Of a stretch of DNA of 64,000 nucleotides, positions 4,526 through 16,311 are shown in pieces. The position numbers were made by a program, and so were the translations under genes. Position 1 is the first letter of the stretch. Each line of letters starts with the position of its first letter. Source of the DNA: Microbulbifer sp. YPW16 (GTDB lineage Bacteria; Pseudomonadota; Gammaproteobacteria; Pseudomonadales; Cellvibrionaceae). Under the pieces are notes generated by a model. That model had not been told where the DNA came from. It worked only from the letters and a program-made list of their open reading frames with translations, and did no database searches. The DNA lies in NCBI RefSeq assembly GCF_021290385.1, contig NZ_CP089928.1, forward strand, positions 2,988,501-3,052,500. The letters run 5' to 3'.

Positions 4526-6451
4526 TTACTGCGATTTGCGTACCCGCAGGTACCACTCCGATAACAGTCGAACCTGTTTCTCGGTATAACCCCGTTCCAC
4601 CATGCGATCGACAAAGTCGGCGTGCTTCTTCTTGTCGTCCGCTGAAGCCTTGGTGTTGAAGGAGATAACCGGGAGCAGGTCCTCGGTATTGGAGAACATT
4701 TTCTTCTCGATCACTGCGCGCAGCTTTTCATAGGAGCGCCAGTCCGGGTTTTTGCCCTGGTTGTTGGCGCGGGCGCGCAGCACGAAGTTGACGATCTCGT
4801 TGCGGAAGTCTTTCGGGTTGGAGATGCCGGCGGGCTTCTCGGTCTTCTCCAGTTCCTCGTTCAGGGCGCCGCGGTCGAGAATCTCGCCGGTCTCCGGGTC
4901 GCGGTACTCCTGGTCCTGGATCCAGAAATCGGCGTAGGTGACGTAGCGATCAAACAGGTTCTGGCCATATTCGGCGTAGGACTCCAGGTAGGCGGTCTGG
5001 ATTTCCTTGCCGATAAACTCCACATAGCGCGGTGCCAGGTATTCCTTGATAAAGCCCAGGTACTTCTCCTGGTATTCCGGCGGGAACTGCTCCTGCTCGA
5101 TCTGCTGCTCCAGCACGTAGAGGAGGTGTACCGGGTTGGCGGCCACTTCGGTGGCGTCAAAGTTGAATACCTTGGAAAGGATCTTGAACGCGAAGCGGGT
5201 AGAGAGGCCGTTCATGCCCTCATCTACACCGGCATTGTCACGGTATTCCTGGATGGTTTTGGCCTTGGGGTCGGTGTCCTTGAGGTTCTCACCATCATAG
5301 ATTCGCATCTTGGAATAGATACTCGAATTCTCCGGCGCCTTGATCCGGGATAACACGGAGAATTGCGCCAGCATGCGCAGGGTGTCGGGCGCACAGGGGG
5401 CCCTGTTCAGGGAGCTGTTTTCCAGCAACTTCTGGTAGATCTTGATTTCTTCCAGCACCCGCACGCAGTAGGGAACCTTGACGATATAGATGCGATCGAG
5501 GAACGCCTCGTTGTTGCGGTTGTTGCGGAAGGACTGCCACTCGGACTCGTTGGAGTGGGCGAGAATAATGCCATTGAATGGGATGGAGCCCAGGCCCTCG
5601 GTGCTGTTGTAGTTGCCTTCCTGGGTTGCAGTCAGCAGTGGGTGGAGCACCTTGATCGGCGCCTTGAACATCTCCACAAACTCCATCAGGCCCTGGTTGG
5701 CGCGGCACAGGCTGCCCGAGAAGCTGTAAGCATCGGGGTCATTCTGGGGAAAGTCCTCAAGCTTGCGGATATCCACCTTGCCCACCAGCGAGGAAATGTC
5801 CTGGTTGTTCTCGTCGCCGGGCTCGGTCTTGGAAATTGCCACCTGGTCGAGAATGGACGGGCGGACTTTCACCACCCGGAACTTGCTGATATCGCCCTGG
5901 TACTCATGCAGTCGCTTCATGGCCCAGGGAGACATGATGGTATTCACGTAGCGGCGGGGAATGCCGTAATCCTCCTCGAGAATCTGCCCGTCCTCTTCTG
6001 GAGAGAACAGGCTGAGGGGCGATTCAAACACTGGTGAGCCCTTGATGGCGTAAATGGGGATCTTCTCCATCAGCGCCTTGAGCCGCTCCGCCAGGGAGGA
6101 CTTGCCGCCACCCACCGGACCCAGCAGGTAGAGGATCTGCTTTTTCTCCTCAAGGCCCTGGGCTGCGTGGCGGAAGAAGGAAACGATCTGCTCGATCGCT
6201 TCCTCCATGCCGTAGAACTCGCTGAAGGCAGCGTAACGCTTGATCACTTTGTTGGAAAAGATACGCGACAGGCGTGGATCGTGGGAGGTGTCAATCAATT
6301 CTGCCTCGCCGATCGCCATCAGCATGCGTTCCGCCGGAGAGGCGTAGGCGCTGGGGTCCGCCTTGCACAGCTCCAGGTAGTCCTGGATGCTGAGCTCCTC
6401 TTCCTGGATGGACTCGTACCTTTCCTGGTAGTGATTGAAAATCGTATTCAT
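4526..6451 (-). CDS. yeaG: PrkA/YeaG serine protein kinase
   Basis: The 641-residue protein closely follows E. coli YeaG in my recall: it starts MNTIFNHYQERYESIQEEEL, has an AAA-type P-loop GPVGGGKS at residues 111-118, and a C-terminal PrkA domain ending FVDRMVERGYTEKQVRLLSE. The frame stays open upstream to 6706, but the start at 6451 matches the family N-terminus and has GGGAG 5 nt ahead; the longer leader is GC-rich and not family-like. It heads the yeaG-yeaH-ycgB operon, which in enterobacteria responds to nitrogen starvation and stationary phase. No clear sigma-54 site was seen in the 370-bp upstream region. Confidence 0.95.
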   Translation of the reverse strand: MNTIFNHYQERYESIQEEELSIQDYLELCKADPSAYASPAERMLMAIGEAELIDTSHDPRLSRIFSNKVIKRYAAFSEFYGMEEAIEQIVSFFRHAAQGLEEKKQILYLLGPVGGGKSSLAERLKALMEKIPIYAIKGSPVFESPLSLFSPEEDGQILEEDYGIPRRYVNTIMSPWAMKRLHEYQGDISKFRVVKVRPSILDQVAISKTEPGDENNQDISSLVGKVDIRKLEDFPQNDPDAYSFSGSLCRANQGLMEFVEMFKAPIKVLHPLLTATQEGNYNSTEGLGSIPFNGIILAHSNESEWQSFRNNRNNEAFLDRIYIVKVPYCVRVLEEIKIYQKLLENSSLNRAPCAPDTLRMLAQFSVLSRIKAPENSSIYSKMRIYDGENLKDTDPKAKTIQEYRDNAGVDEGMNGLSTRFAFKILSKVFNFDATEVAANPVHLLYVLEQQIEQEQFPPEYQEKYLGFIKEYLAPRYVEFIGKEIQTAYLESYAEYGQNLFDRYVTYADFWIQDQEYRDPETGEILDRGALNEELEKTEKPAGISNPKDFRNEIVNFVLRARANNQGKNPDWRSYEKLRAVIEKKMFSNTEDLLPVISFNTKASADDKKKHADFVDRMVERGYTEKQVRLLSEWYLRVRKSQ

Positions 6452-6821
6452 TGACAACTCCCTGTAGCGTGTCGGGCGACCTTCGTGTTCCAGTCGGGGC
6501 TCAGGCTCGCGGGATACTGCGCCGGGGGTGACCAGGCCATGGACTGTCGGCGAGATGGTGGCGCCCTGGGGGCGACACTGGTGCTGAATCGCGCTGCTGC
6601 GCTTAAACCAAAATCTATCTTTATTTCCGGTCCCTCGATGACCGGGCGGCGCTGCCGGGACGCGCCGGGCGAGGAAAATTACTTTTTGCTCTCGCTTTTC
6701 CAGCATAGCTCTCCCTTAAAGGGAGACGCCGGAGAGACCTCAATACAGGTTGAAAAGGGCGGCAGTTTTGCGCTCTACTTACGCCCCATTCCCGAGAACT
6801 AAAAAATGAAGGGCCAGACCC
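6452..6821. other. Divergent intergenic region between yeaG and galE
   Basis: This 370-bp region has no convincing gene. It holds a perfect palindrome with 7-bp arms around one base (CTCCCTT-A-AAGGGAG, 6711-6725), which could be an operator, and a weak sigma-70 candidate for galE (next entry). I saw no convincing -12/-24 sigma-54 element for yeaG. Confidence 0.5.
6750..6779 (+). promoter_or_regulatory. Possible galE promoter
   Basis: TTGAAA (6750-6755, 5 of 6), an 18-bp spacer and TCTACT (6774-6779, 4 of 6), 43 bp before the galE ATG. The match is modest. Confidence 0.35.
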
Positions 6822-7896: not shown

Positions 7897-8988
7897 CTAC
7901 CACTCCAGGAAGAAGCTGGTATCGGCCGCCCCCGGGCGGAGTTGCCCACCAAAGCGGCGGCACTCGCGGTCCAGTTTCTTCCTGAGCCACTCCCGGTCCA
8001 TCTCCGGCGCCTGCTCCAGTCGCAACCGCCGCGACTGGAGTGGGATCAGCTCCAGCGACTGCAATGCTCCATCTTCATTCAGCTCCACGCAGTACAGCAC
8101 CCGCAAGTCCGGCCGGAACTCTTCCTGGCCACCGATACCTTCGTAGTCGTTAATCAGGTCACCGCAGCCGTACAGGATCGGCCTGTCGCGGTAGACTTCG
8201 ATTGCCTTCGGGTGATGGGAGGAGTGACCGCACACCAGGTCGATGCCGCCTTCTATCAACCGGTGGGCAAATTGTTGTTGCTCGGCGGGTACGGCGTATC
8301 CCCAGTTGCCGCCCCAGTGTACTGACACCATGGTGACGTCTCCGGGGCTGCGGATGGCGTTGATGCGACTAACAATATTGTCGGCCATCTCCGCTGACAG
8401 GTTGTCTGCACGGCACACTCCGGCCGTGTCCGGCGTGGCCGCCCAGACCGGGGGAATGCCACTACTGCCATGACCACAGGCAAGTACCAGCAACCTTTGC
8501 GTGCCAGCTTCCATGACAGCCGGCCTGCAGGCATCCTGTATCAGGTTGCCTGCACCGACTGTTTTGATTTCCACTTCGCGAAGACGCGCCAGTGTCTCTT
8601 CCAGTCCTGCATAACCCCAGTCCAGGACATGGTTATTGGCGAGGCTACAGATGTCGACTTCCGCCACCGTAAGGCATTGCAGGTTGGCCGGGTGCATACG
8701 GTAGTGGATACCCTTGCCCGGCCAGCAGTCGTCACTGGTGGTGACAGCCGTTTCCAGGTTAATGACCCGTAAGTCTGGACGACGGGCCTGCATGACTGTA
8801 AGGGCATCACCCCAGATGTAGTCCGGTGAGACGGGCAGGGGAATGGGGCCATTGCGCTGCTCGGCGAGGGCTACATAGTCATAGGCAGATTTCAGCCAGG
8901 ACTCGTAGATTCTCGGATTGCAGGGGCTCGGGAGTATCTGGTCGATACCCCGTCCGGTCATGACATCGCCGGCAATAAGCAGTCGCAT
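7897..8988 (-). CDS. CapA/PgsA-like metallophosphatase family protein
   Basis: The protein begins MRLLIAGDVMTGRGIDQILP and carries the PGA_cap pattern: GDVMTGRG near the N-terminus, INLETAVT, CSLANNHVLDWG, VSVHWGGNW and a C-terminal VCGHSSHHPKAIEVY segment. CapA homologues act in poly-gamma-glutamate capsule assembly, but here there are no capsule neighbours and neither a signal peptide nor a membrane anchor, so the protein appears cytoplasmic. The ATG at 8988 (363 residues) is preferred: AAGGAG lies 11 nt ahead, whereas an in-frame GTG at 9000 would overlap that Shine-Dalgarno. The substrate is unknown. Confidence 0.85.
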   Translation of the reverse strand: MRLLIAGDVMTGRGIDQILPSPCNPRIYESWLKSAYDYVALAEQRNGPIPLPVSPDYIWGDALTVMQARRPDLRVINLETAVTTSDDCWPGKGIHYRMHPANLQCLTVAEVDICSLANNHVLDWGYAGLEETLARLREVEIKTVGAGNLIQDACRPAVMEAGTQRLLVLACGHGSSGIPPVWAATPDTAGVCRADNLSAEMADNIVSRINAIRSPGDVTMVSVHWGGNWGYAVPAEQQQFAHRLIEGGIDLVCGHSSHHPKAIEVYRDRPILYGCGDLINDYEGIGGQEEFRPDLRVLYCVELNEDGALQSLELIPLQSRRLRLEQAPEMDREWLRKKLDRECRRFGGQLRPGAADTSFFLEW

Positions 8989-9112
8989 ATCCCGGGCCAC
9001 TCCTTATAGACAAAAATAAAAACCCAATAACAGAGTTTCTTCGTCTACATTTGAAATTATATTCTCAAGTAAAATTGAATAAAAAAATTAAACTCTCCAT
9101 ATGATTCTTGAT

Positions 9113-9141
9113 TTGACGAGCATTTGGGGCGAATGAAGAAT
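9113..9141 (+). promoter_or_regulatory. Candidate promoter of the microcin operon
   Basis: TTGACG (9113-9118, 5 of 6), a 17-bp spacer and AAGAAT (9136-9141, 4 of 6). A second, weaker pair, TTGAAT-N17-TAAAAC, lies closer to the first gene. Which is used cannot be told from sequence. Confidence 0.4.
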
Positions 9142-9159
9142 TTTAGTGCATAATTTTCT

Positions 9160-9199
9160 AATAGCTGTCAGAAATATTTTCATTTTTTTTCAATAGCTG
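9160..9199 (+). repeat. Paired direct repeat AATAGCTG
   Basis: Two identical 8-bp copies at 9160-9167 and 9192-9199, spaced 32 bp, downstream of the candidate -10. Helically phased repeats are typical of activator or repressor dimers, but no regulator gene is in the island. Confidence 0.4.
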
Positions 9200-9300
9200 A
9201 ATGTTTATTCAAGGCTTGTAATTAAATGTAATGAGACAGTTTTGAATTTTACCAATATGGCATGTAAAACACCGTCCCTGTTTTCTTATTCAAGAGGGGA

Positions 9301-10557
9301 ATGTCGGCGGTGTCAGGGTTGTTCCGTAACCAGGTATTGCAGCGACAAGCGGATCGCCTGCACGGGGAGATCCTGTTACTGCCTCGCCTTTCCCATTTGG
9401 CTATTCTGGCTCTGTTATTGATTTGGGTGATTGCAGTTGTCGCATGGCTTTGCAGCAGTAATTACGCGCGGCAGGAAACGGTGCAGGGTTGGCTTGAGCC
9501 AGCGTCGGGCGTGGTGCGTGTCTATACGGATAGCCCGGGCATCATAAAGCAGGTATTGGTAGAGGAAGGGGAAAGTGTTGTCGAAGGCCAGCCGTTAATC
9601 GTGGTCAATGGCGATCGCATCCTAGACAATGGCAAGCACCTGGAATCTCTACTGTTGGCAGAGTATAAAAGTCAGCGCCAACTGCTTAATGAGCAGTTGG
9701 CGCGCAGCGAGAAGATCTACCGGCAACAACTACAAGACATACAGCAACAGACTGCTGCGACGAGACAGGATCTGTCGTTGCTGGAAAAGCAAATTGTGAC
9801 GCACACTCGTCGCTACACACTAATTTCGGAGCAGGCGGAGCGTTACCGGATTCTCAACGATAAAGGCCATGTTTCCTCTGCAGAGCTGGAAAGTGTGTTG
9901 GCGCAGGAACTGGAAATGCGCGCCGAGCGCCAGAGCCTGGAGCGCAACCGAGTCAAGCTGCAAAGCCAGATCCAACAATTAAAAAGCAAAATGGTGTTGC
10001 TGCCAGAAGAGCATGCCGATGTCGCCGACCAGTTGCGCGCGAGGCTTTCGGATCTGGCGCAGCGGGTTGCCCAATTGCATGGACAACGCGCCTACATCGT
10101 CAAGGCTTCCCGGGCGGGCGTAGTCAGTAATTTACAGGCTGAAGAGGGGCAACAGGCGCAAACAGGAGTCCCAGTCCTGTCCCTGGTGCCCGACGGACAA
10201 GCTTTGACAGCGCAGTTGCTGGTGCCAGTCCGCTCCGCTGGTTTTCTCGATGCGGGTCAATCCTTGAATATTCGTTACGACGCCTTTCCTTTCCAGAAAT
10301 TCGGGCTCTATAGCGGCAGCGTGCTGGAAGTCTCCGATACGGTCATGCTCCCAGATGAGCTGCTCAACACGCCTGTATCGGTACGTGAGCCTGTGTTCAA
10401 GGTTTCCGCGCAGCTGTCTCAGCCATCGGTCCGCGCTTATGGCGAGAATTTCCCGCTCAAGCCGGGTATGACTCTATCCGCCGATGTGCAGCTCGCCGAA
10501 CGCAGTCTTCTGCAGTGGCTGCTGGAACCCATCTATAGCCTGAAGGGACGGCTGTAA
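9301..10557 (+). CDS. HlyD/CvaA-type membrane fusion protein for peptide export
   Basis: The 418-residue protein has a short cytoplasmic N-terminus, one membrane segment (~31-51), a lipoyl-like half (GWLEPASGVVRVY, VEEGESVVEGQPLIVV), a long Gln/Glu-rich coiled coil (~115-235), and the second half (IVKASRAGVVSNLQAEEGQQ) with a C-terminal barrel (LKPGMTLSADVQLAERSLLQ). This is the periplasmic adaptor that links an inner-membrane ABC exporter to a TolC-like channel, as CvaA does for colicin V. No outer-membrane channel gene is nearby, so a chromosomal TolC is presumed. Its stop overlaps the exporter ATG (TAATG), so the two are coupled. Confidence 0.92.
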   Translation: MSAVSGLFRNQVLQRQADRLHGEILLLPRLSHLAILALLLIWVIAVVAWLCSSNYARQETVQGWLEPASGVVRVYTDSPGIIKQVLVEEGESVVEGQPLIVVNGDRILDNGKHLESLLLAEYKSQRQLLNEQLARSEKIYRQQLQDIQQQTAATRQDLSLLEKQIVTHTRRYTLISEQAERYRILNDKGHVSSAELESVLAQELEMRAERQSLERNRVKLQSQIQQLKSKMVLLPEEHADVADQLRARLSDLAQRVAQLHGQRAYIVKASRAGVVSNLQAEEGQQAQTGVPVLSLVPDGQALTAQLLVPVRSAGFLDAGQSLNIRYDAFPFQKFGLYSGSVLEVSDTVMLPDELLNTPVSVREPVFKVSAQLSQPSVRAYGENFPLKPGMTLSADVQLAERSLLQWLLEPIYSLKGRL

Positions 10558-12689
10558 TGGACGCGACTGCCCAGCAAGGAGCACGCCAGCCGCGCCCGGA
10601 GCAACTACTGCATTTTGCTACCGGTCGACGCCTGCCGGCAATACAGCAGACAGAGGCCGCGGAGTGCGGTCTGGTATGCCTGGCGATGATTGCCGGCTTC
10701 CATGGCTACGATACGGACCTGACAGCGCTACGTAGGCGTTTCAGTATTTCGAATCACGGTACCAACCTCAAAACCCTGATGGACATGGCCGGCCGCCTGA
10801 ATCTGGCAGGCCGCGCGCTGCGCCTGGAGCTGGAGCAGCTGGGAGAGCTTCAACTTCCCTGTGTGCTGCACTGGGATATGAACCATTTCGTGGTATTGAA
10901 GTCGGTGCAGCGCAGCAAGGTGACTATTCACGACCCTGCGATGGGCGAACGGGTGCTGACCCGTGAAGAGTTCGGTCAGCACTTTACCGGTGTTGCCCTG
11001 GAGCTCACGCCCACACAAGAATTCCAGGCGGGTGAAGATCGCAAGCACCTGAAGCTTCGTCATTTCTGGTCGCGTGTCACGGGGCTCAAGCGCAGCCTGG
11101 TACAGGTATTGCTGCTGTCCCTGTTGTTGCAGATTTTCGCCGTAGTCGCCCCTTTCTATGTGCAGACGGTGGTGGATGATGTCATTCTGCGCGGTGACGA
11201 AAACCTGTTGCTGGTACTGGCCATAGGCTTCGGTTTGTTGCTGTTGATACAGACCGGCACCAGCGCTCTACGCCAATGGGTGATACTGTATATTTCCAGC
11301 CGGCTCAATATGCAGATGGCCGCCAATCTCTTTCGTCACCTGATCCGGCTGCCAATGAGCTATTTCTCAACTCGGCATATGGGGGATGTGGTGTCGCGCT
11401 TCGGCTCCCTTAGCCAGGTTCGGGAACTGTTGACCACAGGGCTGGTCGCGGCGTTGGTGGACGGGGTTATGGCCCTTATCACGCTAACTGTCATGTTCTT
11501 CTACGACGTAGAGCTAACACTGTTAGTCCTGCTGATAGTGATGCTGTATGCAGTGCTGCGCCTACTACTTTTCCGGCCGTTGAGGCTGCTTACCGAAGAA
11601 AAGATCGTGGCCCAGGCGAAACACGATTCGCATTTTATGGAGTCCGTGCGCGCCATCCAGACTGTGAAGATATTCCAGCGCGAGAATGACCGCCAGGCGC
11701 AGTGGCAAAATCGCCTGGCGGATACCATCAACAAGGATATCCGCATCACGCGCTGGAATATCGGCTATGACACCATCAATCGACTCCTTTTTGGTCTGGA
11801 AAATCTGCTGGTCATCTATTTTGCCGCCACTGCGGTGATGGGAAATCTTTTCACGGTAGGGATGCTTTACGCCTTTATCAGCTATAAGACCCGATTTGTA
11901 GAGTCTATGGATGCGCTGATCGTTAAATGGATCGAAATCAAGATGCTCGGTCTGCACCTGGACCGTCTGTCCGATATTATTTTTACGCACATCGAAGAAA
12001 TCGACTCGGTAAATACCCTGGCGATAGGGGGCGGTGAATCTAAGCAGACCCTTGGCGGCACTATCGAAGTACGCAATCTGGGCTTTCGCTACGGTGAGGC
12101 GGAAGCACCCGCCTTCCAGAATCTGAACTTTTCCATCGAAGCAGGGGAAACTGTTGCCATTGTTGGTCCCAGCGGCTGTGGCAAGACAACGCTCCTTAAA
12201 TGTCTGATGGGACTGCTAGAGCCGAACGAAGGCGAAATACTGATTGACGGTCAGCCACTGAAGCAGGTGCCTAATTTTCGCTGCCAGATCGCCGGTGTTA
12301 TGCAGGACGACCAGCTGCTCGCCGGAAACATAGCCGATAACATTGCCTGCTTTGAGCCACAGCCGAATCTGCAGCGCATTGCGTACTGTGCTCAAATGGC
12401 TTGTATACACGAGGAAATTCTCGAAATGCCGATGCAGTACAACACGCTGGTGGGCGATATGGGAACGAGCCTCAGTGGCGGGCAGAAGCAAAGAATTGTG
12501 TTGGCGCGTGCGCTCTATCGTGCGCCTCGCATACTTTTCATGGATGAAGCGACCAGTCACCTGGATGTGGCGAATGAATCTTTGGTCAACGACCATATCA
12601 AGCAGCTCGCTATTACCCGGGTATTGGTGGCTCATAGGCCGGAGACGGTCGAATCTGCAGGGAGGCAGATAGAACTGATTGGCAGTTAG
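10557..12689 (+). CDS. C39-peptidase-containing ABC exporter (CvaB/LahT type)
   Basis: The 710-residue protein has an N-terminal C39 cysteine protease with all catalytic parts: oxyanion Gln31 region QQTEAAECG with Cys37, His110 in WDMNHFVVL, and Asp126 in IHDPAMG. An ABC transmembrane region (~165-445) follows, then a nucleotide-binding domain with Walker A GPSGCGKT (537-544), signature LSGGQ (639-643), Walker B ILFMDEATS and H-loop VLVAHRPET. The family cuts precursors after a Gly-Gly leader and exports the mature peptide. The two double-glycine precursor genes directly downstream are the obvious substrates. The catalytic residues are intact, so this is a maturing exporter and not one with a dead C39-like domain. 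Confidence 0.96.
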   Translation: MDATAQQGARQPRPEQLLHFATGRRLPAIQQTEAAECGLVCLAMIAGFHGYDTDLTALRRRFSISNHGTNLKTLMDMAGRLNLAGRALRLELEQLGELQLPCVLHWDMNHFVVLKSVQRSKVTIHDPAMGERVLTREEFGQHFTGVALELTPTQEFQAGEDRKHLKLRHFWSRVTGLKRSLVQVLLLSLLLQIFAVVAPFYVQTVVDDVILRGDENLLLVLAIGFGLLLLIQTGTSALRQWVILYISSRLNMQMAANLFRHLIRLPMSYFSTRHMGDVVSRFGSLSQVRELLTTGLVAALVDGVMALITLTVMFFYDVELTLLVLLIVMLYAVLRLLLFRPLRLLTEEKIVAQAKHDSHFMESVRAIQTVKIFQRENDRQAQWQNRLADTINKDIRITRWNIGYDTINRLLFGLENLLVIYFAATAVMGNLFTVGMLYAFISYKTRFVESMDALIVKWIEIKMLGLHLDRLSDIIFTHIEEIDSVNTLAIGGGESKQTLGGTIEVRNLGFRYGEAEAPAFQNLNFSIEAGETVAIVGPSGCGKTTLLKCLMGLLEPNEGEILIDGQPLKQVPNFRCQIAGVMQDDQLLAGNIADNIACFEPQPNLQRIAYCAQMACIHEEILEMPMQYNTLVGDMGTSLSGGQKQRIVLARALYRAPRILFMDEATSHLDVANESLVNDHIKQLAITRVLVAHRPETVESAGRQIELIGS

Positions 12690-12721
12690 CCAAATCTTCA
12701 TTGAGATAAGGAAATAGAGTT

Positions 12722-12943
12722 ATGAAAGAACTGGATGCCGCTAGCCTTGAGCTTGTAGTGGGTGGAGCAACGGATACTGAGGCTGCCATCTCTGGTGGTT
12801 TGATGGGAGCTTTAGGGGGCGCTGGAGCAGGTGTTGTAGTAGCTACGGTGGCTGCTACGCCCTTGGGCCTGAGCGTCTTGGCGGGGGCGGCCGTTGTAGG
12901 CGGTATTTCTGCAGCGTGGTCATTTGCGACTAATGAGAACTAA
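12722..12943 (+). CDS. Double-glycine microcin precursor A (glycine-zipper peptide)
   Basis: The 73-residue ORF begins with the 15-residue leader MKELDAASLELVVGG. It has the hydrophobic positions used by C39 proteases (Leu -12, Leu -7, Val -4) and Gly-Gly at -2/-1. The predicted mature part is 58 residues starting ATDTEAA, with stacked GxxxG motifs (GGLMG, GALGG, GAGAG), a long hydrophobic helix and a short C-terminus ending SFATNEN. No Cys is present, so no disulfide is expected. AAGGAA lies upstream of the ATG. It follows the exporter by 32 bp. Family-level call: class II microcin or bacteriocin, probably membrane-active; homology to a named peptide was not recognised. Confidence 0.85.
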   Translation: MKELDAASLELVVGGATDTEAAISGGLMGALGGAGAGVVVATVAATPLGLSVLAGAAVVGGISAAWSFATNEN

Positions 12944-12953
12944 GGAGGGAGAT

Positions 12954-13169
12954 ATGCAAGAGTTAAATCGAGATCAACTTGAGGCTGTGGTAGGCGGCTC
13001 AGAGATGACGGCGGTTATTGGAGGAATGTCGGGAGGAGCGTTAGCAGGTGCTTCTACCGGTGCTGGCATCGGCTTTGCCATCGGTGGCCCTGCGGGGGCG
13101 GCTGTTGTTGGGTTGATGGGGGCAGGCATTGGAGGTATATCCGGTGCACTAGCTGCAGCGTTTCGGTAG
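12954..13169 (+). CDS. Double-glycine microcin precursor B (glycine-zipper peptide)
   Basis: The 71-residue ORF begins with the leader MQELNRDQLEAVVGG, the same length and key positions as precursor A (Leu -12, Leu -7, Val -4, Gly -2, Gly -1). The start at 12954 has AAGGAGG 4-5 nt ahead, sitting just after the stop of precursor A (10-bp gap). An in-frame ATG at 12924 would give a leader overlapping gene A and is less likely. The predicted mature part is 56 residues starting SEMTAVIGG, with many GxxxG motifs (GGMSG, GALAG, GASTG, GAGIG, GFAIG, GGPAG, GGISG) and a basic C-terminus AAAFR. Tandem, unlike glycine-zipper peptides suggest a two-component, class IIb-like toxin. Confidence 0.85.
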   Translation: MQELNRDQLEAVVGGSEMTAVIGGMSGGALAGASTGAGIGFAIGGPAGAAVVGLMGAGIGGISGALAAAFR

Positions 13170-13177
13170 TTCTTGTA

Positions 13178-13198
13178 GGGCCCTCGCTTAGAGGGCCC
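13178..13198 (+). terminator. Hairpin after precursor B (attenuator-like)
   Basis: Perfect 8-bp stem GGGCCCTC / GAGGGCCC with a GCTTA loop, 8 bp after the precursor B stop. No U-tract follows, so it may be an mRNA-stabilising or partially terminating structure that sets precursor levels against downstream genes. Confidence 0.55.
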
Positions 13199-13276
13199 AT
13201 GCACTAGTATTCAATAGGTGTTAAGAATAGTAATTGATCCTTTGGGACCGTTGCATGGTTAAAACTGCTGGAGGAT

Positions 13277-13396
13277 ATGAGCTTACTCTATTTGGGAATT
13301 ACTAACACTGTTATTATGTGTTTATGGTTAGGCGTTTTTTCCAGGCTTTTATGTGGTGCATTATCCGGTGAGTTCATATGGGAGCCGATGTTTTAG
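13277..13396 (+). CDS. Candidate 39-residue hydrophobic small protein
   Basis: The ORF is ATG (13277) to TAG (13396). It begins MSLLYLGITNTVIMCLWLGV, is hydrophobic across residues ~3-30, has one Arg (RLLC) and ends FIWEPMF. GGAGG sits only 2 nt before the ATG, close but usable. It lies in the AT-rich tract between the precursor genes and the distal terminator, so it is probably co-transcribed. It could be a tiny immunity or accessory membrane peptide, or chance coding. No homologue was recognised. Evidence is its position, hydrophobicity and Shine-Dalgarno only. Confidence 0.3.
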   Translation: MSLLYLGITNTVIMCLWLGVFSRLLCGALSGEFIWEPMF

Positions 13397-13488
13397 TTTG
13401 GCTAATCTCTAGGTAAAGAGTTCTTCGAATAATTGGCTTGTGTCTTGATTGATTGTTTTGTGGTTGAGTATTTTGGTTTGATTTGGTC

Positions 13489-13638
13489 ATGAATATTATC
13501 TTTTTTTGGGTCTCTGTATTAGTTTCTTACTTTCTGGTGGTTTATTTTTCATCGCTGAATTTTAGCTGGGTGCCTGTCTATATTATAAATGCTGTCTTTA
13601 TAGGGGTTTCGATTTACTATCGTTACTTGAGAGGATAG
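13489..13638 (+). CDS. Candidate 49-residue two-helix membrane protein (possible immunity protein)
   Basis: The ORF is ATG (13489) to TAG (13638). The product starts MNIIFFWVSVLVSYFLVVYF, shows two hydrophobic segments (~3-20 and ~27-44) joined by a short polar turn (SSLNFSW), and ends in a basic tail IYYRYLRG. This is the size and topology of many small immunity proteins for unmodified bacteriocins. Its Shine-Dalgarno is weak; an in-frame TTG two codons upstream does not improve it. It lies before an intrinsic terminator at 13711, in the probable microcin transcript. Function is inferred from context; I recognised no family. Confidence 0.4.
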   Translation: MNIIFFWVSVLVSYFLVVYFSSLNFSWVPVYIINAVFIGVSIYYRYLRG

Positions 13639-13710
13639 AGGATGGGTTTTATAAATAATGGAATGAAGAAAGCGAGCAAGCTTTTATCTATAGTATAAAG
13701 ATGTAATTGA

Positions 13711-13741
13711 ATTGTAGCCGATATGGCTGCAATTTATTTTT
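13711..13741 (+). terminator. Intrinsic terminator of the microcin operon
   Basis: 8-bp stem TTGTAGCC / GGCTGCAA (one G-U pair), GATAT loop, followed by TTTATTTTT; an outer A-T pair extends it. It lies about 540 bp past precursor B, so the small hydrophobic ORFs are probably inside the same transcript, and the CPBP gene is outside or reached by read-through. Confidence 0.75.
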
Positions 13742-13822
13742 CAGTGAGACTCTTAGCAGTTTAAAATGATGAAATTTACGTCGAATCGTGAGCCTGGATA
13801 AAAATGATAAGGGAAATCAGCA

Positions 13823-14626
13823 ATGAATTTTTCTGAAGAAAGTATGTCTACTAATACAGAGGAATGCGGCCAGGGGCATCTCCCAAAATGCGGACTGTTG
13901 CCAAATCCTTGGTACGCCACTAGCTGGCTTGTCGTATTCGCAATCCTTCACTTTGTGGGCGTTTTTCTCTATATCGCCGGCTATGGTGGTTACCTGGGTG
14001 CGCAGCTGGGAGCGCAGGGGGAGGTTGTCGATCCAGCGTCGATCCAGCAGGCCGTGGAGATGCATATCCAGACGCCCGCTGCGTTGGCAGGGATGTACCT
14101 GACCCAGTTCTGCCTGATATTGCCTGCGCTATTGTTTGCATCCAGATTCGAGACCCAGACACGGCGGGCGACGCTGGCCATTTCCGGTTTCCGGTTGGAC
14201 TCCCTATGGCGCTGGCTGTCACTACTCGTGGTATTCATGATCGCACAGGTGGTGACGGTGAAGTCTCTCGGTGTCGAGCAGGGGGAATTTATGCAGATGC
14301 TGGCGGGCAGTCGCCATTTGCCGCTGGCGCTGGTGGTGGTATTCGCCGCGCCGTTACTGGAGGAGTTGCTGTTTCGGGGATACCTGTTTGGGGCCTGGCG
14401 ACAGACCCGGCTCGGTTTCAGTGGCACTCTGTTGCTGACCTCTGGCTTGTTTACCCTGATGCACTGGGGGCAATACCACTGGGTGCAGTTGAGTTTCGTT
14501 TTTGTACTGGCGCTATTGTTGGGGCTGGCACGGGAGAAGAGCGGTTCGGTATTACTGCCGATGCTGCTGCACTTGCTGAATAACCTTGTCAGTGCGGTTG
14601 TGGTTATATATCTGGGAATCTTGTAA
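13823..14626 (+). CDS. CPBP-family intramembrane glutamic endopeptidase (possible microcin immunity)
   Basis: The 267-residue polytopic membrane protein has the three Abi/CPBP motifs: EExxxR as EELLFR (Glu180, Glu181, Arg185), FxxxH as FTLMH (Phe210, His214), and HxxxN as HLLNN (His250, Asn254). Catalytic residues therefore appear intact. The family includes CAAX-prenyl-protease-like proteins and bacteriocin self-immunity proteins coded beside class II bacteriocins. The start at 13823 has AAGGGA 8 nt ahead. It sits 80 bp after the microcin operon terminator in the same orientation, so self-protection or processing is a reasonable inference. A housekeeping protease role cannot be excluded. Confidence 0.85.
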   Translation: MNFSEESMSTNTEECGQGHLPKCGLLPNPWYATSWLVVFAILHFVGVFLYIAGYGGYLGAQLGAQGEVVDPASIQQAVEMHIQTPAALAGMYLTQFCLILPALLFASRFETQTRRATLAISGFRLDSLWRWLSLLVVFMIAQVVTVKSLGVEQGEFMQMLAGSRHLPLALVVVFAAPLLEELLFRGYLFGAWRQTRLGFSGTLLLTSGLFTLMHWGQYHWVQLSFVFVLALLLGLAREKSGSVLLPMLLHLLNNLVSAVVVIYLGIL

Positions 14627-14637
14627 GGCGTCCCGCA

Positions 14638-14665
14638 AGCCAGTATTCACTGTGGGATACTGGCT
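14638..14665. terminator. Hairpin between convergent CPBP gene and apaH
   Basis: 9-bp perfect stem AGCCAGTAT / ATACTGGCT with a 10-nt loop, placed between the two convergent stops. T-tracts on either side are poor (TCGCTTT on plus), so efficiency is uncertain. Confidence 0.5.
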
Positions 14666-14669
14666 CGCT

Positions 14670-15482
14670 TTATGAGCCGCAATCCGCACAAAAAAACTTC
14701 TCATCACTAAGCCGCATTGCAGTCAGATACCCGCCCCAGACACAGCCAGTATCCAGCGCATAAACGTTCTCGGTATCAGCCCTTCCTTCCAGCGCCGCCC
14801 AGTGGCCAAAGATGATCTTGTCCTTCCTGGTTTTGCGCTCTGGAAAGCTGAACCAGGGGTGGTAATCGTTATGCTCCGCTTCCGGACCGCGCTTGGTGAC
14901 CAGGTCCAGAGTGCCGTCGGCCTTGCAGAAGCGCATGCGGGTGAAATAGTTGGTGATAGAGCGCAGGCGCTCGATGCCCAGCAGGTGCTCGTTCCAGCAG
15001 TGCGGCTCATTGCCATACATGCCGTAGAAGAATGCCTTGGCGAGGGCGTCGTCAGCAAGGGCGTGGTGTACTTCCCCGGATAGCTCGATTGCTTTGGTGA
15101 TACTCCAGATGGGCGGTATGCCGGCGTGGACCATGGTGAAGCCCTTCTTGTGGACTACCAGTGGCAGGCTCTGCAGCCACGTCAGTAGCTTGTCGGCGTC
15201 CTTCGCACGCAGGACCCTGGCCAGGTCGTGCTCCCTGTCTGTCAGGCGCTTGGCGCCATGGGCCAGCGCCAGCAGGTGCAGGTCGTGGTTACCCAGTACC
15301 GCGGTCACCTGGGAACGGTGTTCGTAGAGGAAGCGGAGGGTGCTCAGGCTGTCGTGGCCGCGGTGCACCATGTCGCCGGCCAGCCAGAGCTTGTCCCGGT
15401 CGGGGCGGAAGTGGATTTTATCCAGCAGGCGCATAAACGGGTCGAAGCACCCCTGGATATCGCCAATTGCGTAGGTCGCCAA
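14670..15482 (-). CDS. apaH: Symmetrical bis(5'-nucleosyl)-tetraphosphatase
   Basis: The 270-residue PPP-family phosphatase has metal-binding motifs GDIQGC (8-12), GDMVHRGHDS and GNHDLHLLALAHG, with a C-terminal FGHWAALEG and LDTGCVWGG. It splits Ap4A to two ADP, limiting alarmone-like dinucleotides and NpnN RNA caps. The start is a TTG (15482) with AGGGA upstream; no ATG fits the family N-terminus MATYAIGDIQG. It is the last gene of the lptD-surA-pdxA-ksgA-apaH series, a standard gammaproteobacterial order, 31 bp after ksgA. Confidence 0.95.
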   Translation of the reverse strand: MATYAIGDIQGCFDPFMRLLDKIHFRPDRDKLWLAGDMVHRGHDSLSTLRFLYEHRSQVTAVLGNHDLHLLALAHGAKRLTDREHDLARVLRAKDADKLLTWLQSLPLVVHKKGFTMVHAGIPPIWSITKAIELSGEVHHALADDALAKAFFYGMYGNEPHCWNEHLLGIERLRSITNYFTRMRFCKADGTLDLVTKRGPEAEHNDYHPWFSFPERKTRKDKIIFGHWAALEGRADTENVYALDTGCVWGGYLTAMRLSDEKFFCADCGS

Positions 15483-15513
15483 AACGCTGTCCCTGTGTCT
15501 CTGCTATGCCGAT

Positions 15514-16311
15514 TCAGGATTCGAGTGTGGCACAGTAGTTTGCCAGTTCGACAAACTCTTTCACACTGAAGGTCTCCGGACGGCGGCTGGCATCCAACGG
15601 CAGGGCAGCGGTGTCCAGGTCGGGGTAGAGCGGCTTGAGGGCATTGCGCAGGGTCTTGCGGCGCTGCTGAAAGGCCACGTTGACGATGCGTTCCAGCAGG
15701 CCTTCGTCGCTCGCCGCCAGCTCTGGTTTGTCGCGGGGGGTGAGCCGGACAATAGCGGATTCCACCTTGGGCGCCGGCCGGAAGGATTGCGGCGGCACCG
15801 GGAACAGGCCCTGTACGCGGCAATGGTACTGCACCATTACGCTCAGCCGCCCGTACGCCTTATTCCCGGGCGTGGCACTCAGGCGGTCCACTACCTCTTT
15901 CTGCAGCATAAAGTGCATATCCTGGACCATGCCGCGGAAAGAGAGCAGGTGAAAGAGCAGGGGGGTGGAGATGTTGTACGGCAGGTTGCCGACGATCCTG
16001 AGTGGCTTGTCCCGGGCCAGGGTGCTGAAGTCGAATTTCAGGGCGTCCTGCTCAATGATGCTGAAGTCGGGGTAGTCGCGAAACTTGAACTCCAGCATCG
16101 GGATCAGGTCGCGGTCAAGCTCAATGGCAGTAAGGCCGGGGCAGCGTTGTAGCAGCAGCGCGGTGATAGCGCCCTGACCGGGGCCGATTTCCACCAGCCG
16201 GTCTGTCTCCTTCGGCCCGATGGCGCGCACAATGCGCTCGATGATGTTTTCATCCACCAGGAAGTTCTGGCCGAAGCGCTTGCGCGCTTTGTGCTCGAAA
16301 AAATTATCCAT
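15514..16311 (-). CDS. rsmA: 16S rRNA dimethyladenosine transferase
   Basis: The 265-residue KsgA/RsmA has KRFGQNFLVDENIIERIVRA at the N-terminus, the SAM site EIGPGQGAIT, and catalytic motif IV NLPYNIS. The C-terminal part (QRRKTLRNALKPL) matches the family. It dimethylates two adjacent adenosines in helix 45 of 16S rRNA during late 30S assembly; loss gives kasugamycin resistance. It follows pdxA by 16 bp and precedes apaH in the same minus-strand operon. Confidence 0.96.
   Translation of the reverse strand: MDNFFEHKARKRFGQNFLVDENIIERIVRAIGPKETDRLVEIGPGQGAITALLLQRCPGLTAIELDRDLIPMLEFKFRDYPDFSIIEQDALKFDFSTLARDKPLRIVGNLPYNISTPLLFHLLSFRGMVQDMHFMLQKEVVDRLSATPGNKAYGRLSVMVQYHCRVQGLFPVPPQSFRPAPKVESAIVRLTPRDKPELAASDEGLLERIVNVAFQQRRKTLRNALKPLYPDLDTAALPLDASRRPETFSVKEFVELANYCATLES

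Follow-up and report, generated by a model that had tools for sequence, protein, structure and literature searches.

Class II microcins of the colicin V type are built from few parts, namely a precursor with a leader, a peptidase-containing ATP-binding cassette (ABC) transporter (PCAT) with catalytic Cys, His and Asp, an adaptor, and TolC, which acts in trans; ten of them are counted as proven, mostly from Escherichia coli (PMC9746304). A further system, mcbABCI of Moraxella catarrhalis, encodes one peptide, and killing as well as an immunity gene are described as proven (PMC2761928). The Cdz islands comprise CaaX proteases, variable toxins beside conserved exporters and two-protein glycine-zipper toxins (PMC5380434). 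Here, a related island of the marine gammaproteobacterium Microbulbifer sp. YPW16 was analyzed. It lies in a stretch of 64,000 nucleotides, referred to as the window, which corresponds to positions 2988501-3052500 of the complete 4.19-Mb genome. The island consists of genes for an adaptor, an exporter, two precursors (A1 and A2) and two small hydrophobic open reading frames (ORFs) and is followed by a gene for a CPBP membrane protein, all on the + strand:

9301..10557, + strand: HlyD-family adaptor (membrane fusion protein) of 418 aa, HlyD_3 48.6 bits (cut-off 22.2)
10557..12689, + strand: C39-peptidase ABC exporter (PCAT) of 710 aa, recognized by Pfam and by alignment to 6mpz
12722..12943, + strand: precursor A1 of 73 aa, with a 15-aa double-glycine leader and a 58-aa core (ORF translation)
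12954..13169, + strand: precursor A2 of 71 aa, with a 15-aa double-glycine leader and a 56-aa glycine-rich core (ORF translation; Bacteriocin_IIc)
13277..13396, + strand: 39-aa hydrophobic ORF, candidate immunity gene; relatives have a small hydrophobic protein here; no Pfam family
13489..13638, + strand: 49-aa hydrophobic ORF (counted from ATG) with a basic C-terminus, second candidate immunity gene; no Pfam family
13823..14626, + strand: CPBP/Rce1-like membrane protease homologue, Rce1-like 70.7 bits (cut-off 22.4)

Judged from its genes, this is probably a class II microcin-type island, in which A1 and A2 are predicted to be trimmed and exported via the TolC of the host and would likely act jointly as a membrane-active toxin on related bacteria, the island being one filled slot of a modular lineage. 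Double-glycine precursors, a PCAT with Cys, His and Asp and a membrane fusion protein were found in the island, and a TolC-type protein in the genome. The exporter exceeded the Pfam cut-offs of Peptidase_C39 (125.7 bits, cut-off 22), ABC_membrane (143.1, cut-off 28) and ABC_tran (117.2, cut-off 25), and its residues Cys37, His110 and Asp126 have identical counterparts in an alignment with 6mpz, a C39 domain of known structure. It is the sole Peptidase_C39 match of the genome at E values up to 0.001. With 512.8 bits it stayed below the curated cut-off (853.3) of the NHLP/NHLM bacteriocin exporter model TIGR03796, and the adaptor reached 144.6 bits with TIGR01843, under the cut-off of 208.65. 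Translation of the adaptor starts either at ATG 9301 or at GTG 9310; the latter aligns with the relatives and may be the true start. Two matches over the TIGR01844 cut-off for TolC-type proteins were obtained in the genome, none of them in the island. An earlier note on this stretch had proposed a colicin V-like export set with two double-glycine precursors and a C39 exporter with an intact catalytic triad, which would use a host TolC in place of an outer-membrane channel of its own. Domains, catalytic residues and precursors support this proposal, and the channel is indeed absent from the island. The words 'complete' and 'self-contained' in the same note go too far: TolC must come from elsewhere in the genome, and immunity is a guess from the small ORFs.

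A1 and A2 are arranged in tandem in one operon with a spacing of 10 bp, and their cores are cysteine-free with net charges of -3 and 0, respectively. A2 lies over the cut-offs of Pfam Bacteriocin_IIc (27.5 vs. 27.1) and bacteriocin_sig (16.1 vs. 15.7), whereas A1 matched no Pfam family above its cut-off and reached 12.7 with bacteriocin_sig. No family for either precursor was found in PHROG or PADLOC. Among 5.8 billion proteins, A1 retrieved itself and one 71-aa metagenomic relative (P0002, 77% identical), and A2 retrieved no match; since not even A2 itself was returned, this search is blind to A2. Within 144 genomes of the family, credible relatives of A2 were detected in G039 (E 3.7e-6) and in G054, which belongs to another genus (44%, E 1.3e-5). 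In G039 an exporter end is followed by two tandem precursors, of which the first weakly resembles A1 (z 3.0) and the second is the A2 homologue (core z 8.6); in G054 the A2 relative is again the second member of a tandem pair, with a 48-aa hydrophobic protein encoded behind it. Leader peptides encoded side by side in an operon are a trait of class IIb (two-peptide) bacteriocins, and pairs of this kind recur in these two genomes. An A1 match in G062 (E 0.002, within a 517-codon frame) and four further A2 matches (E 0.005-0.007) were judged to be chance. In the proposed mechanism, cleavage of A1 and A2 by the exporter peptidase behind Gly15 would free cores of 58 and 56 residues, which have a high Gly and Ala content and a predicted helical structure, and protection would come from a small hydrophobic protein just downstream (the 39-aa or the 49-aa ORF) or from elsewhere.

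Of the described systems, mcbABCI is the nearest proven architecture and Cdz is an analogue. The order of adaptor, exporter, double-glycine peptide with a 15-residue leader motif and small gene on one strand is common to mcbABCI (compared on pLQ510) and the window, and the mcbABCI exporter is 46.8% identical to that of the window over residues 18-701. The window differs in having two peptides unrelated to McbC (all pairs of the McbC core with A1 or A2 under z 6) and candidate immunity ORFs. With CdzC/CdzD of Caulobacter the island shares two small glycine-rich proteins, type I export and the lack of a local TolC; the Cdz toxin-immunity operon is divergent from the exporter operon there, whereas the island genes are all on the + strand (PMC5380434). 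Cdz further stands out by surface aggregates and killing that depends on contact. On the megaplasmid of Shewanella oneidensis MR-1 an adaptor, a 51.7% identical exporter and two adjacent peptides annotated as 'bacteriocin-like peptide' are encoded, which differ from the island by the plasmid location and by other cores. Unlike class II microcins of the colicin V type, the window peptides belong to no named peptide family except Bacteriocin_IIc (A2), are two precursors in tandem and are accompanied by candidate immunity ORFs.

The genomic site of the island was surveyed in 48 Microbulbifer genomes, anchored on apaH, and is bounded in the window by two genes on the opposite strand:

7897..9000, - strand: PGA_cap (CapA-like) gene, left flank, Pfam profile match
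14670..15482, - strand: apaH, right flank and site anchor, present in 48/48 genus genomes

In 43 of the 48 genomes galE is found no farther than about 9.1 kb from apaH, the intervening distance ranging from about 80 to 9135 bp, and no close galE was found in the stretch examined of the remaining five. A capA-like gene is located on the galE side of apaH in 13 genomes; the gap between both genes is empty (about 80-370 bp) in eight of these and filled in five, four times with this exporter and in G026 with an exporter that is just 40% identical. Within the genus, the content of the galE-apaH gap varies, and the comparison across relatives that the earlier note had suggested found the island present in some and absent from others. 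Exporter copies within the genus are 76-88% identical, and copies of at least 76% identity occur in 12/48 genomes, some at other places and some broken; the copy of G015 carries one in-frame TAG. At the galE-apaH site itself this exporter was found in six genomes (the window genome G000, G047, G012, G014, G015 and G019).

Behind these exporters the cargo varies. Upon inspection by eye of 21 exporter 3' ends from 13 genus genomes, a leader peptide followed in 20 cases (the G015 leader ends in Ala-Gly); the exception was G041a, with a transposase-like sequence, likewise recognized by eye, in the cargo slot. By a strict criterion, which demanded a double-glycine precursor at a distance of up to 270 bp, 17/21 ends were positive, compared to 0.29% of shuffled flanks and 9/1663 control windows. 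The cargo cores are largely unrelated, as only 4/276 pairs among 24 cores (21 from the genus) reached z > 6, a comparison that omits the second G039 peptide, which matches A2, and the peptides of G026 contig 9. Within the six same-site genomes, G012 and G015 are the sole pair sharing a cargo type. No match to A1 or A2 was found in the other five same-site loci, where different leader peptides occupy the slot. The earlier note had counted the absence of its precursors from all orthologous loci that keep the exporter against its proposal, and at this site they are literally absent; because those loci hold other leader peptides in the same slot, we read this as cargo exchange and not as refutation. 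In G014 (locus L107), an 85% identical exporter at the galE-apaH site is followed by a 53-aa precursor, a 413-aa protein and a 316-aa ATP-grasp protein (TIGR04187 108 bits, MvdC TIGR04185 106 bits, both under cut-off), which is likely a graspetide-type modification locus. The 413-aa protein is weakly like ChaN, below the family cut-off.

Copies of the exporter end were found beside displaced cargo. In 102 distinct full exporters from the window, Microbulbifer, the family and more distant loci, second copies of 240 nt of the 3' end, the middle and the 5' end were sought in the same locus. Displaced copies of the 3' end were present in 6/102 loci, of the middle in 0/102 and of the 5' end in 3/102. 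All 3' copies lie downstream of the exporter, in G023, G019, G057 (three in tandem), G054, L066 (a metagenome-assembled genome (MAG) of the Alteromonadaceae) and G047, the last being a 49-nt scrap from inside the exporter 3' end. All 5' copies lie upstream, in L011, L057 and L060, and leader peptides are located in the adaptor-exporter gap there. This gap measures at least 400 bp in 11/102 loci, adaptor and exporter adjoin in 80, and 11 loci are without an upstream adaptor; 5' copies occurred in 3/11 gapped loci vs. 0/80 adjoining ones, and the table of cargo order by exporter end (5, 0; 1, 3) gave p = 0.048. Cargo follows the displaced ends, hereafter tags, in G023 (after 45 bp), G019 (53 bp), G054, L066 (290 bp) and behind the first two tags of G057, and none was found past the third G057 tag or the G047 scrap. 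An exporter-end copy of L254 (a Cellvibrio MAG), seen at the protein level alone, stands outside the six, and the exporter end of G039 contig 61, cut by the contig end, is left out of the fragment count. In two further cassettes, L116 (G039) and L117 (G041), just the adaptor start and the exporter end are kept and followed by cargo, the join forming one open frame in G039 and losing the frame before the exporter end in G041. Both retain an operator-like repeat, cargo and a small hydrophobic protein and are possible users of an exporter in trans. The exporter end corresponds in the window to:

12615..12677, + strand: exporter codons 687-707 of 710, holding the most codon-conserved 20-codon stretch of the gene

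Since a similar exporter is found with different cargo at one site, and since stacked cargo units are separated by exporter-end copies, we infer that cargo is exchanged cassette-wise by recombination at the exporter end. In a broader form, to which we give even chances, Gram-negative microcin exporters would be cartridge holders: cassettes would enter at the cargo-facing exporter end, push older ones outward and leave a tagged stack, so that one exporter type at one slot would serve one-peptide, two-peptide and ATP-grasp-associated, likely modified, cargo, with A1/A2 as the current cartridge of one species. The tag would be the 3' end where cargo follows the exporter and the 5' end where cargo precedes it. 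This resembles the displaced effector-immunity arrays of the Vibrio cholerae type VI secretion system (T6SS), in which new units push old cargo away from the machinery gene and the array persists; the machinery is another one, and the mark in the relatives of the island is a copied exporter end (PMC5361080).

Alternatively, the displaced ends could stem from tandem duplication in place or be kept as a cis-acting element, without acquisition of cassettes, which we regard as a serious possibility of somewhat less than even probability. Codon conservation within the gene peaks near the exporter end (codon identity 0.67 vs. 0.44 gene-wide in 10 Microbulbifer copies), and the decayed G019 copy is 80-83% identical in two 30-column end blocks vs. 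30-67% in other exporter columns, both of which speak for such an element; the stacked G057 peptides are alike, and duplication in place explains that array equally well. However, the stacked peptides are unrelated in G023 and G019 and, by eye, in G054, and the copies, which mostly lie between stacked cargo units, correspond for the most part to the exporter end that faces the cargo, whichever side of the exporter this is. The end of the exporter gene recurs beside displaced cargo in relatives; the conserved codons at 12615-12677 include the motif TCTGCAGGGAGGCAG with an AGG codon. A role of the exporter-end nucleotide element as a wide cis signal was rejected, as it is strong in Microbulbifer and near kin and missing from most distant genera. 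Trees of the 5' and 3' parts of the exporter differ, with few taxa and uneven support, and a mosaic exporter was not used as proof. In G019 (L109), the first cargo and the displaced exporter end are separated by a gene for a 289-aa Clp-protease-like protein (9046-9915).

Together with the G057 array, several observations weigh against a joint toxin pair in an exchangeable slot. Exporter-end copies are uncommon (9/102 loci), and the window itself contains no displaced exporter end in 12690-14700 and 9001-9300 (tblastn E up to 10, blastn E up to 1), where the best exporter match, with E 0.11, was at chance level. L066 is gapped yet carries a 3' copy and thereby breaks the simple rule of order; it also has downstream cargo. 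Outside the genus the slot is less regular, with a leader peptide within 300 bp in 14/21 family loci, and most Pseudoalteromonas loci yielded no leader peptide by pattern. G000, G047 and G015 group together in the exporter and adaptor trees much as in the apaH tree, so that a recent transfer of the exporter is not shown and an old insertion with losses is equally possible. The AlphaFold models of A1 and A2 are both helical, with weak to moderate confidence, that of A1 being weak (pLDDT 67; A2: 78), and GxxxG motifs are not significantly enriched in A1 (3 vs. 1.8 expected, p = 0.25). No immunity gene was identified by homology for the island ORFs in Pfam or the protein collection, and with 39 and 49 aa the two candidates are shorter than the known immunity proteins of 51-216 aa given in the literature (PMC9746304).

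The island is real, its kind is known, and it belongs to a lineage whose cassette architecture is apparently undescribed. The peptide pair is new, as are the tagged cassettes of relatives; the novelty of the latter rests on the relatives and not on the window island alone. Literature searches at the level of titles and abstract openings found neither exporter-end-tagged microcin cassettes nor Microbulbifer microcins. Of the suggestion that the system is possibly undescribed, the part on the peptide cores stands, since these are new, whereas the architecture matches the proven mcbABCI (PMC2761928) and resembles Cdz (PMC5380434). The locus offers two candidate peptides from a marine genus, along with a natural series of sites that are either empty or refilled. 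Should exporter-end tags be marks of cassette exchange, they would provide a simple sequence signature for unknown microcins and protection genes, which similarity searches hardly detect, and secreted peptide weapons could, if this is true, evolve by displacement like T6SS effectors.

That A1 and A2 are two separate one-peptide bacteriocins, which share an exporter and have no joint action, is unlikely in our view. Related loci often hold one to three different precursors behind one exporter, the cores of A1 and A2 show little similarity (z 2.4), and the GxxxG enrichment seen in A2 (9 vs. 4.6 expected, p = 0.006) is lacking in A1, as would fit independent peptides. Against this, tandem precursors of which the second is A2-like are found again in G039 and G054, and a related exporter of S. 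oneidensis MR-1 is likewise followed by a pair of neighbouring bacteriocin-like peptides.

In some bacteriocin loci of Gram-positive bacteria, immunity is provided by CPBP proteins, and the earlier note had counted the CPBP gene as part of the island. In the genus a close CPBP homologue is present in 14/48 genomes, 11 of which, the window genome among them, have it at the galE-apaH site. In 5/12 exporter-bearing genomes it is encoded close to the exporter locus, among them G023, where this is at another chromosomal place. With 9/36 genomes lacking this exporter also carrying CPBP, the association is insignificant (Fisher p = 0.29); moreover, in seven genomes the site holds CPBP but not this exporter, one of them (G043) retaining an adaptor fragment, and in G047 the cargo is unrelated, yet CPBP is 85% identical. 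A terminator-like hairpin may separate CPBP from the island, a weak argument. CPBP is therefore probably a neighbour at the same site and not an integral part, contrary to the earlier assignment, and a function as immunity protein, which would make it part of the system, is improbable.

C39 exporters also process signalling peptides, such as the substrates of ComA. It is nevertheless very improbable that A1 and A2 are exported signals or surface or adhesive peptides and not toxins, considering the high cargo turnover behind a conserved exporter, the small hydrophobic proteins after the cargo in several relatives and the proven bacteriocin behind related machinery (PMC2761928).

Beside the genes of the island, three sequence elements were recorded:

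9217..9232, + strand: TGTAAT-N4-TGTAAT direct repeat, operator-like, 68 bp before the adaptor ATG and the sole match in the window
about 13178..13198, + strand: hairpin just past A2, z -2.9, no T-run
13708..13736, + strand: terminator-like hairpin at the boundary of island and CPBP (consensus scan)

Hairpins after the cargo reached z < -2.5 at 11/15 cargo ends vs. 0/30 control windows. A terminator had been listed among the island parts, and a terminator-like hairpin does exist at 13708-13736; the hairpin after A2 lacks a T-run, and terminator-like consensus sites barely exceed chance (10 found vs. 6.5 expected, sd 2.7). For the 49-aa ORF no homologue was found in the protein collection, and homology to a G039 membrane protein was rejected (z 0.1).

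The TGTAAT repeat was found genome-wide in 11 exact copies and in 31 with at most one mismatch, vs. 2 for the reversed control. With at most one mismatch it precedes this operon in 10/16 genus copies (null 0.35%) and is found in 0/67 other loci. It resembles 10-bp direct repeats and may be a response-regulator box, which would wire the island to a regulon of the host. The view that the island has no regulator of its own holds, though a conserved operator-like repeat common to other genomic sites precedes the operon. Some of the other exact repeat sites (L224-L235) lie before lipoprotein-like or receptor-like genes, as seen by eye from the N-termini, and would form a regulon.

The description of the island as an AT-rich stretch with all genes on one strand was confirmed by a GC scan and the ORF list. 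Position 9001 is the first base past the neighbouring capA-like gene, and 9001-13822 has a GC content of 0.508, the lowest among 4822-bp windows taken in 250-bp steps (mean 0.618, sd 0.033). The non-coding parts are the most AT-rich, with 29% GC in 9001-9300. Because of the base composition and the patchy presence, a foreign origin of the island is suggested, the alternative being an old insertion with repeated loss. No tRNA was found in 1-30000 of the window and no Rfam family in 8000-16000. A PrkA-type serine kinase gene at 4526-6706, near galE, is an ordinary neighbour.

Further cargo arrangements were observed in relatives. In the Pseudoalteromonas loci L018 and L019, four tandem, near-identical 36-aa peptides of the double-glycine type with a spacing of about 133 bp lie downstream of the exporter, after three other short ones. 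Three similar precursors with FVCGGLCV or IVCGGLCV after the leader are encoded at L114 (G026 contig 9), with a pyridine nucleotide-disulphide oxidoreductase-like protein encoded behind them, a possible hint at disulphide chemistry.

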